Part shown: in pieces, positions 9,118-14,386 of the stretch
Position numbering within the stretch: the stretch's first letter is position 1
Layout of the letters: every line of letters begins with the position of its first letter
Virus record (IMG/VR): IMGVR_UViG_3300009702_000035
Coordinates: 1-46,062 of that record
From: a virus
Length of the DNA: 46,062 bases
Strand: one strand, 5' to 3'
The notes under the pieces: generated by a model
Seen by the model: only the letters and a program-made list of their open reading frames with translations
What the model was told of the DNA's origin: nothing
Database searches by the model: none
Position numbers and translations under genes: made by a program

Positions 9118-10974
9118 CTACGAATCAAATACCGGGACAATAGTTGTTCTACAGTTTGATACAATGATTTGATCAGCAGCCGCCCACCCACCTTCCGTCT
9201 GGAGGTCGTACACGTGCCCGCTAAATGGACGCCACCTAATGTCGACGACCTGGTCAACGACTACGTCTCCGGGATGACTCCTAAGCAGATCGCCAGCAAG
9301 CACGGCGTCTCCACTACACCGGTGACTAGGGTCCTCCGTGAGGCCGGCGTCGATCTCAGAAGCCGGTCCGACGCAGAGCGACTGAAGTGGAGGTCTATCA
9401 AGGCTCAGGGGAGGACAGCGGTCGAGCGTCAATGCTCTGCTGCCTGGCGGGCGGCCAGGGGCAGAATCCATGTGGACGACGAAGTCGCTGCTAGGGCGGA
9501 GTCCCTTTCTCGATCCGGGAAGAAGCGCGGTAGGAACGTAAGGGGAGAGGACCGGATCGCGTCCGAACTCACGAAGCTCGGACACGTTCCCGATCAGCAG
9601 TTCGCGATTTGGCGCTACAACCTCGATCTTGCTTTCACCGAAGATCGCGTCGCCGTGGAAGTCCTGGGACACGCCGTCAATCGTAAGTACGCCGGAACGC
9701 TCGCCAAGAGAACGGAATACCTCCTTGACCGTGATTGGTTCGTTCTCTTCATCGAGGTCATTCACGGACCCGATCGACGACGGGTTGACTACCCGGCAGT
9801 AGCCAAGAAGATCATCGCCGTTCTCGAGCGCGTCCGCTCGGACGAATCCCTCCGGGGTCAGTACGGGGTGATTGGGCGTCAGGGCGAGCCTTCGGCCGCC
9901 CTTCGTGCGTACCTCGACCACCTCCCCAGAGTAGAGGAACCGTGAACACAGAACGATCTTTCCCTGAACTTGGGTGTCTCCGGGGTAGCACCTGTGATGG
10001 TATGGCGGCGTGTCGATCCCACGCTGGTTCATCGTAGAAGGCTTGACCTTGTCCCAGCCGCCTGTGGTCTTGGTAGCGATCAGCGCACCAGTTGCGGTCA
10101 CGATCTTTCCGTCCCGAAATCGCATGAACGGTGTTGCTTTGGTGCGGACCTCGTTGATGTCCCTCGCGGCCTCGAACCGATCAAATGAATCGAGCGCATG
10201 TCCGGTACTCAAAATAGTTCCGTTCATCATTATACAAATCTGAGATGTCCTGGAATCTAGTATCGCCACCACTTCATATTGGTCTATTCCATTCTCAGCA
10301 TAGGTAGCTACGGCTGAGAAACTGCGTGCGCGGTTCGTGTGGTTCGCAGCAACGGTGTCCCAATAGCTGGACGCAATACCTGTCTCTGTAAATTCACGAC
10401 GGAGGTTGGAGCCGATCTCTCGCGTTCCCAACCCCTTTGCCGTCCCGTCCGCCAGGATGTCCTGGGCCCTTCGCCTGAACCGAGTTGCCCTCTGTTCGTA
10501 CTCGGGAACGAAGAAGATCGACGTCGTATCACGGATAGCCGCGATGGCCTTGGCGTTCTTGAGGGCAAATGAAGCATCGACGCTGACCTGTCTATACTTC
10601 CTGGCCGTGTCCACATGTGTGGCTTCTGTTACGACCTTCCCGTGTTCGTCAAGGATGAGAGTCAACTTCGGGAGGGCGTCAGAGGACAGGCCGGCCAGGA
10701 GGGCCTCGAGGGCGTCGAGGGCGCGCTCCTTCTGACCGTCTGTCGACGTCTTCCAGTTGATGTTCGTGTTGGCCTTGAGGGAGTCACGGACCTTCCGTGA
10801 GCTGATCGTCTTACCCATCTGCCGGCGGAGCAGCCGCGCCTCCTTGAGCGCGGACCTGATGAACCCGTCATCAGTCAAGATCGACGGTGGCTTACGTGCC
10901 TTCCCGAGCAGGCGTCGCTCGAGCCAGTCAACGTCGTCAAGCAACAGGACTGAGTGCTCGAGGCTACTCGCCAT
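9118..10974 (-). CDS. MuF-like phage head morphogenesis protein interrupted by an intein
   Basis: 618-residue precursor. The start at 10974 is chosen because it overlaps the portal stop by 11 nt and avoids a non-coding-looking N-terminus. The extein carries the MuF/SPP1 gp7 pattern: a long helical region, then ILADGTAKGLGTREIGSNLR, ANHTNRARSFSAVATYAENG, AILDSRTSQICIMMNGTIL, and the end TPPYHHR/CRTTIVPV. The intein splits the last motif, between His-His-Arg and Cys-Arg-Thr. After splicing the protein would be about 339 residues. MuF proteins ride with the portal and enter the head, consistent with the gene following the portal gene. The intein strand is also coding in the opposite direction (9214-9945). 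Confidence 0.85.
   Translation of the reverse strand: MASSLEHSVLLLDDVDWLERRLLGKARKPPSILTDDGFIRSALKEARLLRRQMGKTISSRKVRDSLKANTNINWKTSTDGQKERALDALEALLAGLSSDALPKLTLILDEHGKVVTEATHVDTARKYRQVSVDASFALKNAKAIAAIRDTTSIFFVPEYEQRATRFRRRAQDILADGTAKGLGTREIGSNLRREFTETGIASSYWDTVAANHTNRARSFSAVATYAENGIDQYEVVAILDSRTSQICIMMNGTILSTGHALDSFDRFEAARDINEVRTKATPFMRFRDGKIVTATGALIATKTTGGWDKVKPSTMNQRGIDTPPYHHRCYPGDTQVQGKIVLCSRFLYSGEVVEVRTKGGRRLALTPNHPVLTPEGFVRADALENGDDLLGYCRVVNPSSIGSVNDLDEENEPITVKEVFRSLGERSGVLTIDGVSQDFHGDAIFGESKIEVVAPNRELLIGNVSELREFGRDPVLSPYVPTALLPGSRKGLRPSSDFVVHMDSAPGRPPGSRALTLDRCPPLSLDRPPLQSLCVGPASEIDAGLTEDPSHRCSGDAVLAGDLLRSHPGDVVVDQVVDIRWRPFSGHVYDLQTEGGWAAADQIIVSNCRTTIVPVFDS
9154..9990 (-). other. Intein in the MuF-like protein (279 aa)
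   Basis: It begins with Cys at codon 9988-9990 (CYPGDTQVQ, block A). Block B is TPNHPVLTPEG. The middle contains DFHGDAIFGESKIEVV, a pattern seen in phage mini-inteins. Block F/G is GHVYDLQTEGG...IIVSN followed by Cys+1. The penultimate residue is Ser rather than the usual His. No LAGLIDADG or HNH motif is visible in this frame, so it is a mini-intein on its own strand; an endonuclease gene lies antisense inside it. Confidence 0.85.
9214..9945 (+). CDS. HTH plus Vsr/EDxHD-like homing endonuclease, antisense inside the intein
   Basis: 243 residues on the plus strand, wholly inside the minus-strand intein (9154-9990). A perfect GGAGGT (9201-9206) lies 7 nt before a GTG, which decides the start. 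Residues ~10-45 form an HTH (DLVNDYVSGMTPKQIASKHG, then GVSTTPVTRVLREAGV). Residues 50-85 match the linker common in phage homing enzymes (RSRSDAERLKW, AAWRAARGR). Residues ~110-185 look like a Vsr/PD-(D/E)XK nuclease: Glu near 112, the Asp of YNLDLA, the Glu of VAVEVLGH, then RTEYLLDRDWFVLF. It would cut intein-less alleles and mobilise the intein. Both strands are open for 732 bp and both look like real proteins. It ends 45 bp before the intein's first codon. No plus-strand promoter was recognised. Confidence 0.8.
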   Translation: MPAKWTPPNVDDLVNDYVSGMTPKQIASKHGVSTTPVTRVLREAGVDLRSRSDAERLKWRSIKAQGRTAVERQCSAAWRAARGRIHVDDEVAARAESLSRSGKKRGRNVRGEDRIASELTKLGHVPDQQFAIWRYNLDLAFTEDRVAVEVLGHAVNRKYAGTLAKRTEYLLDRDWFVLFIEVIHGPDRRRVDYPAVAKKIIAVLERVRSDESLRGQYGVIGRQGEPSAALRAYLDHLPRVEEP

Positions 10975-13900
10975 CAGACTGAAGATCCTCGTCATCGAAG
11001 AACGAGTCCTTCGCTTCGTCAACGGCCTCCGCGATCTCGCTGCGGACCATTTCGATGAACGATGCAAACCCATGTGCGCGAGCCCGACGCTTCGAGACAG
11101 GCATTGTGAATTCGATCTCATGAGTATGACCGTTGACCTCACTGGTCATGACCGTCACGTCTGATCCCTGTGGCGGCACCTTCGTCAGGTTTGCATCATG
11201 GGTATGATGCGAACCGTCAGGCCCCTCGGCTGGGCGAACGATGATCTTGACCTCACCGTCTTCACGGATGACGACGTAGCGGTGGACATGTCTGTCTGAC
11301 ATGGTCGAGGTCCCGGCGGCCAGGACATCCCCAGCAACGCCTCCGACCTGGTCAACAGCGCGCTGCTCAACCATGCTGTCCGCGGCGTTCCCGGCCGCCG
11401 GCTCAGCACCAGCCAGTGAGCCCGTCCTGGCCGCAGCGAGTGCCAGTTTGGGCGGGATGTTGCCCCAGTCTTCCGTACGGTAAGGCAGCTCGATCGAGAA
11501 GGCATCTGCGATGAACTGTCGTGCCTCATTCGGCGTGATCCCACCCGAATCAAGAGACTTCTTCATGTTGTCGATCAGGTCGTTGGGGAACCTCTGGACC
11601 GGCGCATTCGTCTTAAACCGCCAGAAGTGGATCCTGAGGTTCGTGAGAAAGTGCCTGTCCATGACGCCGTCGAACTCATCACGAGCCGGTTGGTAAATCT
11701 GCTCCTCAGCCAAGGCCTTTGCGACCTCGGCGGTGTTTCCCTGAATCGCTATCTTGCCGTTGCGGCGGGTCACGAAGAACCCGTATTGCGGTACCGCAAA
11801 GCAGTAGACCCGCCCCGTGTAGGGAACGAGGCTGACGTGGCGATCTCGATTCAGACACGTCTCGCGATGATCGGAGTGCTCGACACGCCAGACGCCCGCG
11901 CCCCAGCGGACCCTCGTCCGATACCCGAGCAGCATGGCAATCTCTTGGACCTGGTCCGCGAGGACGGTTGACTTCGTGTAATAGATCCTCACGGTACGGT
12001 TCTCTCTCGAGTCCTCAGTCCCGTCACCGTCCATGAGTGCGCCATAGAGGTAGGCGAGGTGCCTCCTGTCAGCGTGCATGAACTCTGCCGGAATGTGCTT
12101 GTCAGCGGAATACCCTCCGCAGTTCTTCAGGAGGTAGTCCCGAAGGCACTTGTTACTGATCTTCCATCGAGTCGTGCCGTCGACCGACTCCTGAACCGAG
12201 TAGTTCCATGGGAGGACGTCAAGCAGCGCCTGGATCCTAGCGCGGGGTTCCGGCTTCTTCTGGCTGAGTAGCACCCAGTGCTTGGCCATCGGATCGTCGG
12301 TCTGGAGCAGGGATCCCTCGCTGATCCAATAGCCCAGGAATGTCATGAAGTCGTCGATGTTGATGGTCTCGTGCTGGTGTCCGTCCTTCCTGAGGTGAAC
12401 GCAGTCTTCCCGGCGCGGAACGACGAACTCAGGGTGAAGGTTCTCACCGACCCACGTCGTGGGGTCGGGGGCGCACCGGAACCGGAACCGAGACAGCGTG
12501 AGGTCCTTAGCCTCCTTCTGACGCCAGCGAGACTCCTCCTCGGTCCTCTCGTAGCGAGAGCGGAACAGCATCTTGTGTTCGGCAGTAACAAGCACGTCCG
12601 TGTGGAAGTTCTCGTAGTGGTAGAGCATCTCGTTTTCGACTTCGTGAACGTGTCTCTCAGAGGGGACTACGAAGACCACCGCGTGTTGATCAGGATCGTA
12701 GGCGGCGACCTTCTCGTCAGGAGCGATCTCGTCGATCAGCTTCCAGCCGTTCTCGGTGAGGGTCTCCGTGTCCTCGGAGTAACACGACCTGTTCATGTCC
12801 GCGGTATCGCCGGTGAGCAGCTGCGGCTGACGGAACACGCGGCCGATCTTCTTGATGTTGTTCTGCTCGTAGTTCTGGAACAGGGCGTCTTGCTGCATCT
12901 CCTGCATCAGGGGCTTCAGCTCGACGCGCATCTTCCCGCTGTGTTCGATGTCCGCACCGGGGTCCATCTCTGTGCCGGTCGCCGGGAGGCCCTCGATGAT
13001 CATGATCTTGTGGAAGTTAGCGCGGCCCTTGATCCTCTCGTTGAAGTAGGTCTCGATCCGTTCGACCGACTGCTCGGAGACCCGGCCGCCTGAGACCAGG
13101 AGGACCATCGGCGGGATCGCCTTGTTGTCGAAGTACAGGAAGTTGACCTCCTCAGAGGCCCGGCCGCCGAGGACGGGCATAAGGGCGCTAATCCACCACG
13201 GGACCCCGTATGGCGAGATCGGGCTGTGGACCGTCCAGTGGAACAGCTCATTCGCCGTCTTGGCGTCAGCTCCCTCCTGTTGCTTCATCTCATCGAGGGT
13301 CTCAAATGCGTCACCAGTATCGCGGCTGATCACGCGCGGGTCACCGAACTCCTTGTAGTAGGTGGTGACGGACCCGGTCATGCGGATGAACCGGCGGAAG
13401 TACCTCTCGACCTCCACCTCATCGAACGTGACGGTGTCCTTACGAACGATCATCTTGACCTTCGTAGGCGTACGGTCTGAACGGAGTAGGCGGATGTTCA
13501 CGAAGGGGATCTGGTAGACCTGCTCGATCTTGCTGTAGACGTCGTCTGGCTTCTCCCGGAGGACCTCCCACGCAGCATTCCCGATCAACTCCCGTGAAGT
13601 CCCAGTCTTGGTACGGACGTCAGTGAAGGTGGTGAGCGGGTTTATATAGTCGTAGAAGCACTCAAGCCGACCCTTCTCGATGGTCGATACGGCCGACCAC
13701 AGATTCTTCGTCTCCTCGACGTCGTCGATCGTTGGGGTCGCCTCCTTGATCTGTTCTGGTGTCAGGTCAAGGAGGTCGCGTAGTTCCTCGGCTTCTCCCT
13801 CGATGTTCTGCCGGAGGAGTAGGTCGCGGATCACGTTGTTGATCTCAGGAGAACCGAAGTCCAGTACGGGCTCGAACCTCCAGCCAAACCCGTGGACGTT

Positions 13901-14356
13901 GGTAGTCCAGGCATCGATGTTCTGGCGGAGCGCTGAGCTGTTCTCGAACAGGGCACAGAGCGTGATGAAGTCGAACGGGGGGATGATCACGTCATCTGTG
14001 ATCCCAGAACGTCCAAGGGACCCAACCGCATCATCATCCGTGATCGTCTGGGGCGCCTCGCGAGTCCCGTCCTCGATCTTGTTCACGCCAGCACGTTTGT
14101 ATAGTAGCTCGCGACGTGACCTCTGGGCCTTCAGGTGAGCCTGCTTAAACGGGTCAGCGTCGCCCTCCTTCTCGATAGTCCCCATCCGCTTACCGTAGGA
14201 CACGACCGCCTGCCGCATCGAGTCGAATGACTCATGCCGTTTCTTCTGGTCCGGCGTCATGTCTGCCAGCGCCTCCTGCTGTGACAGGGGTGCAGCAGGA
14301 CCAACGATGAATGCACGTCCAGGAGCAGTCTGGTCCTTGGTGGCAGTATCGGTCAC
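10964..14356 (-). CDS. Portal protein precursor with LAGLIDADG intein
   Basis: 1130 codons. The GTG at 14356 is chosen because GGAGGA lies 5 nt upstream; this Shine-Dalgarno abuts a palindrome copy (14369-14378). The extein shows portal features: a helical N-terminus, FENSSALRQNIDAWTTNVHG, the core (FHWTVHSPISPYGVPWWISA, VNFLYFDNKAIPPMVLLVSGG) and the clip/stem region ending KKIGRVFRQPQLLTGDTADM. The C-terminal ~110 residues include a His-rich segment (HVHRYVV, DGSHHTHDANL, VNGHTHEIEF) that may bind metal. The intein splits NRS/TAEVAKALAEEQ, a conserved portal motif. The spliced protein is about 780 residues. It forms the dodecameric DNA entry channel at one capsid vertex. The stop overlaps the MuF gene start. 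Confidence 0.9.
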   Translation of the reverse strand: MTDTATKDQTAPGRAFIVGPAAPLSQQEALADMTPDQKKRHESFDSMRQAVVSYGKRMGTIEKEGDADPFKQAHLKAQRSRRELLYKRAGVNKIEDGTREAPQTITDDDAVGSLGRSGITDDVIIPPFDFITLCALFENSSALRQNIDAWTTNVHGFGWRFEPVLDFGSPEINNVIRDLLLRQNIEGEAEELRDLLDLTPEQIKEATPTIDDVEETKNLWSAVSTIEKGRLECFYDYINPLTTFTDVRTKTGTSRELIGNAAWEVLREKPDDVYSKIEQVYQIPFVNIRLLRSDRTPTKVKMIVRKDTVTFDEVEVERYFRRFIRMTGSVTTYYKEFGDPRVISRDTGDAFETLDEMKQQEGADAKTANELFHWTVHSPISPYGVPWWISALMPVLGGRASEEVNFLYFDNKAIPPMVLLVSGGRVSEQSVERIETYFNERIKGRANFHKIMIIEGLPATGTEMDPGADIEHSGKMRVELKPLMQEMQQDALFQNYEQNNIKKIGRVFRQPQLLTGDTADMNRSCYSEDTETLTENGWKLIDEIAPDEKVAAYDPDQHAVVFVVPSERHVHEVENEMLYHYENFHTDVLVTAEHKMLFRSRYERTEEESRWRQKEAKDLTLSRFRFRCAPDPTTWVGENLHPEFVVPRREDCVHLRKDGHQHETINIDDFMTFLGYWISEGSLLQTDDPMAKHWVLLSQKKPEPRARIQALLDVLPWNYSVQESVDGTTRWKISNKCLRDYLLKNCGGYSADKHIPAEFMHADRRHLAYLYGALMDGDGTEDSRENRTVRIYYTKSTVLADQVQEIAMLLGYRTRVRWGAGVWRVEHSDHRETCLNRDRHVSLVPYTGRVYCFAVPQYGFFVTRRNGKIAIQGNTAEVAKALAEEQIYQPARDEFDGVMDRHFLTNLRIHFWRFKTNAPVQRFPNDLIDNMKKSLDSGGITPNEARQFIADAFSIELPYRTEDWGNIPPKLALAAARTGSLAGAEPAAGNAADSMVEQRAVDQVGGVAGDVLAAGTSTMSDRHVHRYVVIREDGEVKIIVRPAEGPDGSHHTHDANLTKVPPQGSDVTVMTSEVNGHTHEIEFTMPVSKRRARAHGFASFIEMVRSEIAEAVDEAKDSFFDDEDLQSDGE
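11735..12784 (-). other. LAGLIDADG-type intein in the portal protein (350 aa)
   Basis: It starts with Cys (CYSEDTETLTENGWKLIDE, block A) and has block B at VTAEHKMLFRS. Two LAGLIDADG helices are visible: FLGYWISEGS (about residues 157-166) and YLYGALMDGDG. Block F is GRVYCFAVPQYGFFVTRRN and it ends IAIQGN before Thr+1. A palindrome copy (11789-11798) encodes FAVPQ inside block F, so the repeat has been fitted into a splicing motif. The final Gly-Asn lacks the usual His. Confidence 0.9.
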
Positions 14357-14386
14357 GGAGTCCTCCTTGCGGTACCGCAAGCTAGC

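Follow-up and report, generated by a model that had tools for sequence, protein, structure and literature searches.

The window, by which we mean the whole analyzed stretch of 46,062 nucleotides (IMG/VR virus record IMGVR_UViG_3300009702_000035, positions 1 to 46,062), carries on its minus strand an ORF for a MuF-like minor head protein, among phage head genes and interrupted by an intein (Table 1). On the plus strand, wholly within the intein, lies a gene for a protein with a helix-turn-helix (HTH) domain and a Vsr/EDxHD-like nuclease domain. The preliminary description of this DNA had already placed the Cys1 and terminal Asn of the intein, the GGAGGT and the GTG start of the antisense ORF, and these positions proved correct.

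Table 1. Features of the MuF-like head gene, its intein and the nested antisense gene, with related elements
Feature	Position	Strand	Basis or remark
MuF-like minor head protein ORF, hosting the intein	9118-11142	minus	weak Pfam Phage_Mu_F match; PHROG head proteins
N-extein	9991-11142	minus	part of the MuF-like ORF
C-extein	9121-9153	minus	part of the MuF-like ORF
Intein, 279 residues, Cys1 to Asn279	9154-9990	minus	Cys1 at 9988-9990; terminal Asn at 9154-9156; Cys+1 at 9151-9153
Splicing block A	9952-9990	minus	alignment; sense-type substitution pattern; outside the nuclease gene
Splicing block B (LALTPNHPVLT)	9856-9888	minus	alignment; TPNHPV is intein residues 38-43; antisense to the nuclease C-terminal tail
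Intein motif DFHGD	9649-9663	minus	exactly opposite nuclease VAVEV; both frames conserved
Splicing block F core (GHVYDLQ)	9199-9219	minus	overlapped by the plus-strand Shine-Dalgarno site and start codon
Splicing block G	9154-9183	minus	alignment; outside the nuclease gene
Antisense HTH and Vsr/EDxHD-like nuclease gene, 243 aa	9214-9945	plus	GTG start 9214-9216; last codon 9940-9942; TGA stop 9943-9945
Shine-Dalgarno site GGAGGT	9201-9206	plus	conserved and selected in relatives
HTH domain, nuclease residues 12-56	9247-9381	plus	Pfam HTH_58 5.6e-6
Nuclease domain	9538-9840	plus	
Conserved nuclease residues E112, Q129, D138	9547-9549, 9598-9600, 9625-9627	plus	
Conserved nuclease residues E149, R166	9658-9660, 9709-9711	plus	
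Second intein, 350 residues, in the portal gene (ORF 10964-14380)	11735-12784	minus	in-frame LAGLIDADG domain (Pfam LAGLIDADG_3 4.7e-6)
Free-standing nuclease relatives, Acinetobacter phages BUCT629 and IME285	L195:2803-3696, L193:455-1348		
Free-standing nuclease relative, viral contig L166	L166:3986-4846		

Judged by its sequence blocks and its modeled Hint fold, the minus-strand insert is an intein, and splicing is predicted. Blocks A, B, F and G are all intact; across 64 intein sequences C1, N40, H41 and N279 are invariant, and little or no variation is seen at Cys1, TPNH, blocks F and G or the terminal Asn. The penultimate residue is not His but Ser, as it is in 60 of 153 inteins. Pfam Intein_splicing matched the insert with E 3.8e-8 and 33.7 bits, under its cut-off of 35.8. 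In the AF2 model the Hint splicing blocks were confident and the stretch around DFHGD was ordered; scores at residues 135–216 were mostly <50, as would be expected of a linker that merely shadows the other strand. Foldseek with this model returned Hint inteins, including Mtu RecA. The preliminary name of mini-intein is loose for an insert of 279 residues in which a long linker separates block B from block F. In 127 of the 153 inteins the insertion site is the C-x-C motif of MuF. Two family members, L012 (phage fEg-Eco06) and L094, occupy another MuF site (SRTSTT/C and NRTSST/C), and in L012 the usual site (HPNCR), further along the same gene, is intact. The element of Rhodococcus phage REQ3 (L015) is short (223 residues), has no HTH part of the nuclease and apparently no Cys1, and is perhaps a decaying copy. 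With the portal gene next door, the window has a pair of neighboring head genes whose inteins are opposite in architecture.

The two frames are codon-aligned, with position 1 facing 3 and position 2 facing 2, and every plus-strand codon pairs exactly with a single intein codon as its reverse complement. The nuclease gene occupies the usual place of an in-frame endonuclease, between blocks B and F, but is reversed and extended into both blocks; blocks A and G are not reached. Its Shine-Dalgarno site and start codon fall inside block F, as the preliminary description held, and the overlap goes beyond what was described there in covering block B as well. The frame is also open upstream as far as TTG 9169; the start at 9214 was favored because of the position of the Shine-Dalgarno site. 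No convincing promoter for the nuclease was found in the window. The phage record PK1 annotates the antisense ORF, as hypothetical only.

The AF2 model of the antisense product had a pLDDT of 92.9 and comprised an N-terminal HTH and a C-terminal alpha/beta nuclease domain. The profile search against PDB matched 3hrl (3e-7), the catalytic domain of I-Bth0305I (3r3p, 7e-5) and Vsr (1cw0, 0.016), and Foldseek placed I-Bth0305I at the top (probability 1.00, with a modest E of 7.7e-3) with Vsr next. Pfam searches of 73 nuclease members found MTES_1575 in 48 and DUF559 in eight. Five residues, E112, Q129, D138, E149 and R166, are at least 90% conserved, and all five are present in the window nuclease; a His follows shortly after E149 in some members only, and the H and D of EDxHD are not clearly matched. 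By predicted fold, profile and putative catalytic residues, the product is a Vsr/EDxHD-like, PD-(D/E)xK-related nuclease. The earlier assignment to this group, made from the letters, was therefore borne out by both structure and profile.

Relatives sought with the window intein, nuclease or extein as single proteins were few or none, and related loci were therefore collected with profiles. tblastn with the intein returned 127 phage records and with the nuclease 104; in the loci compared, the nuclease relatives were opposite in strand to the intein. In the window, and likewise in 24 loci from phages of Gordonia, Mycobacterium, Rhodococcus, Salmonella, Escherichia, Pantoea, Pseudomonas, Vibrio, Klebsiella, Edwardsiella, Cronobacter, Idiomarinaceae, Aggregatibacter and others, a codon-aligned antisense frame runs uninterrupted through most of the intein, and this holds even where GC is 41%. 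Among 80 further viral loci from the intein-profile search this frame was open for at least 236 codons in 78, the two broken frames being those of L036 and L039, and the nuclease-profile search found an intein on the opposite strand in 79 of 80 loci. The same two-way gene recurs in more than 140 divergent phage sequences, and antisense nesting, which had been called rare, is not rare within this intein family. A genome scan for the exact peptide GPYNLDLA, and for that peptide only, hit one bacterial contig, a Salinibacterium MAG.

Codon-aligned antisense frames are often open by chance in GC-rich genes, and the portal intein of the window, taken as a control, has an aligned antisense open stretch of 172 codons. 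When the window intein was recoded synonymously, 26 of 20,000 recodings gave an aligned antisense frame as long as the observed one, so that on the window alone a chance ORF is only moderately excluded. The relatives exclude it decisively. Antisense-stop codons (TTA, CTA and TCA) were counted in the overlapped core of 146 inteins, <85% identical to each other, against an expectation from the extein codon usage of the same ORFs: 17 were found where 947 were expected, and 130 inteins had none. The deficit was also present in loci that had not been picked by the nuclease (9 vs 505 expected) and in ORFs below 50% GC (3 vs 375 expected). The intein ends beyond the nuclease gene showed no stop avoidance (221 observed, 113 expected), and 932 and 2016 stops were counted in the two remaining antisense frames of these cores.

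Substitutions point in the same direction. Eighteen pairs of related inteins were compared (about 17 of them independent, as two Gordonia pairs are related). In the linker, substitutions at sense positions 1, 2 and 3 numbered 1095, 353 and 599, an excess at the third position of the nuclease; in the exteins of the same ORFs they numbered 1791, 1360 and 3192, an excess at the third position of the host gene. Each pattern was seen in all 18 pairs. The linker proteins were more alike in the antisense frame (identity 0.78) than in the sense frame (0.63). The antisense gene is, on this substitution pattern, under purifying selection. The preliminary description had named two signs of a fortuitous gene, homologous inteins lacking a conserved plus-strand ORF and codons free of such selection; neither applies, and its proposal survived this check. 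Blocks A and G behave as ordinary sense-coding DNA, with protein identity of 0.89–0.91, and blocks B and F are constrained in both frames. The preliminary statement that 732 bp code for two proteins was right, with an uneven load: the linker serves mainly the nuclease, A and G the intein, and B, F and the DFHGD/VAVEV stretch both.

That 15-bp stretch, in which both frames are fixed, is dual-coding for a conserved nuclease strand with the likely catalytic Glu and for an intein motif. A147 is GCC in 132 of 134 loci, V148 is encoded by GTG in 118 and E149 by GAA in 113, against the GAG preference of the exteins, and the last two letters of codon 146 are invariably TC. DFHGD itself is almost invariant and ordered in the model, yet lies outside the splicing blocks, and its codon choice is not explained by the nuclease frame alone.

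The start site bears a comparable imprint. In 99 of 132 loci the distance between the start codon and the intein end is exactly 60 nt, and at this place the intein encodes H-V-Y-N/D-L-Q/E of block F. The His is encoded by CAT, the antisense of ATG, in 95 of 115 loci (44 expected; z 10.8), and the Leu by CTC in 90 of 106 (27 expected; z 14.8), CTC being the antisense of the GAG within the Shine-Dalgarno site. Both choices are silent in the intein, and this codon bias is, at the level of the sequences, direct evidence of selection for initiation on the nuclease strand.

Additionally, the nuclease occurs as an ordinary gene in three Acinetobacter obolenskvirus records and in viral contig L166. 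These free-standing genes are convergent with, and touch, the 3' end of an uninterrupted MuF gene (a layout inspected in two of the three Acinetobacter records), and the MuF sites beside them, MCKC and HPGCRC, are intact. Their antisense frames are closed, with 12/24/12 stops in Acinetobacter and 5/10/6 in L166, and a search for a decayed intein opposite the Acinetobacter and L166 genes gave no Hint signal. With the Acinetobacter protein as query, its own three records aside, the matches were mainly head-protein genes of intein-bearing phages, with up to 35% identity over 96% of its length. Since these homologues have a closed other strand, the nuclease protein family must be real. The free-standing form is possibly an ancestor or an escapee of the nested gene. 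Caulobacter phage matches to the L166 query were rejected as nucleases, being HTH repeats.

The element is, by sequence comparison, sporadic among close relatives and horizontally spread between phages. Of 349 records from Jerseyvirus-type phages, 58 match the query over its full length and are intein-occupied; among the other such matches listed, most align as two pieces that skip the intein, and in the two empty alleles examined the flanks are joined ungapped. Salmonella phage ZCSE7 and E. coli phage Snoke share 96.4% nucleotide identity in the intein and 70.6% in the exteins, and intein identity exceeded extein identity in 16 of the 18 pairs. Presence and absence together with horizontal transfer indirectly back the suggestion that the nuclease homes the intein. 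The nuclease might instead be real and selected, but merely lodged in the intein and serving another role, such as cutting the DNA of competitor phages elsewhere or regulation via its HTH. This would fit a cleavage site that is only putative and free-standing relatives that adjoin intein-less MuF genes; we nevertheless regard it as improbable, because this intein houses the nuclease in nearly every case (79 of 80 loci), because its free-standing forms likewise adjoin the MuF site, because the patchy occurrence and horizontal exchange of the whole element are what homing predicts, and because its nearest solved relative is a homing endonuclease.

We consider it very improbable that the splicing element is dead weight, with splicing lost and the sense frame kept open only for MuF to read through the nuclease gene. 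The sense linker is disordered and evolves freely, and many members have the penultimate Ser, as such a loss would allow; against this stand the near-invariance of the splicing residues and blocks listed above, the strong sense constraint on the nuclease-free blocks A and G, and the insertion into a conserved C-x-C motif of an essential head protein. That the ORF is a fortuitous by-product of GC-rich codon usage, its similarity across phages mirroring the conserved intein, can be dismissed as having next to no likelihood: mirror similarity is expected opposite a conserved sense protein and probably accounts for the nuclease tail opposite block B, but stops are avoided in AT-rich phages too, linker substitutions track the nuclease frame, silent sites build a Shine-Dalgarno site and ATG, the nuclease fold is confident, and free-standing homologues exist with the other strand closed.

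Very probably, therefore, as far as sequence can tell, the window holds a mobile MuF-type head-protein intein whose homing endonuclease is encoded, nested and codon-aligned, on the opposite strand. From the head-gene strand, the intein would be translated within the head protein and, given its intact blocks, would remove itself by splicing. On the opposite strand, a ribosome would start at the Shine-Dalgarno site and the ATG or GTG hidden in block F and make the HTH and Vsr/EDxHD-like nuclease as a separate protein. This nuclease probably cuts MuF alleles that lack the intein, at the site where the intein inserts, and both intein and nuclease gene would then be copied in as the cut is repaired.

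Canonical large inteins, such as the portal intein of the window, carry an in-frame LAGLIDADG or HNH endonuclease. They likewise combine a splicing domain with an endonuclease between blocks B and F, are likewise mobile, and interrupt conserved motifs of essential phage proteins. Unlike in these, the endonuclease described here is a separate opposite-strand protein that overlaps blocks B and F, and the sense linker is largely disordered. I-Bth0305I/EDxHD (Vsr-like) homing endonucleases were reportedly described by Dassa et al. in 2009 for fractured genes with split inteins, where they are said to be free-standing genes between the gene halves and not nested antisense in an intact intein. They share the nuclease fold, by profile and structure, and likewise occur with inteins in phages; the differences are the antisense nesting and the EDxHD H and D, not clearly matched here. 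According to PMC11855218, the ShiLan element is a mobile, in-frame, stop-free insertion in a phage gene that hides an out-of-frame HNH endonuclease on the same strand, without a splicing domain and with no detectable RBS. The likeness lies in an endonuclease hidden in another frame of such an insertion; the present one is antisense and Vsr-like and sits in a real intein with a selected RBS. For overlapping reading frames in actinobacteriophages, PMC11855218 cites Gosselin, Arsenault and Gogarten (bioRxiv 2025.01.02.630785), a preprint on actinobacteriophage inteins of "non-canonical architecture"; its data may include Gordonia MuF inteins of this family and thus be prior art in part. In the literature compared, outside which lay bioRxiv 2025.01.02.630785, Dassa 2009 and the I-Bth0305I paper, we found no report of an antisense endonuclease within an intein.

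On balance, we lean toward regarding these elements as a widespread, undescribed class of bidirectionally coded mobile inteins, with the splicing domain and the homing endonuclease on opposite strands in codon-aligned frames, 15 bp shared by VAVEV and DFHGD, and a start made from block F. They depart from the rule that places an intein's endonuclease within its own chain, and explain the long, endonuclease-free-looking inteins of phage head genes. Annotation that bars antisense overlap conceals the whole gene family. The codon-aligned antisense register is the one debated for the first aminoacyl-tRNA synthetases (the Rodin-Ohno hypothesis). The family is an example from nature, replicated many times over, of a single DNA segment that must encode a folded protein on each strand, and its divergent examples, more than 140, allow the conflict between the two proteins to be measured codon by codon.
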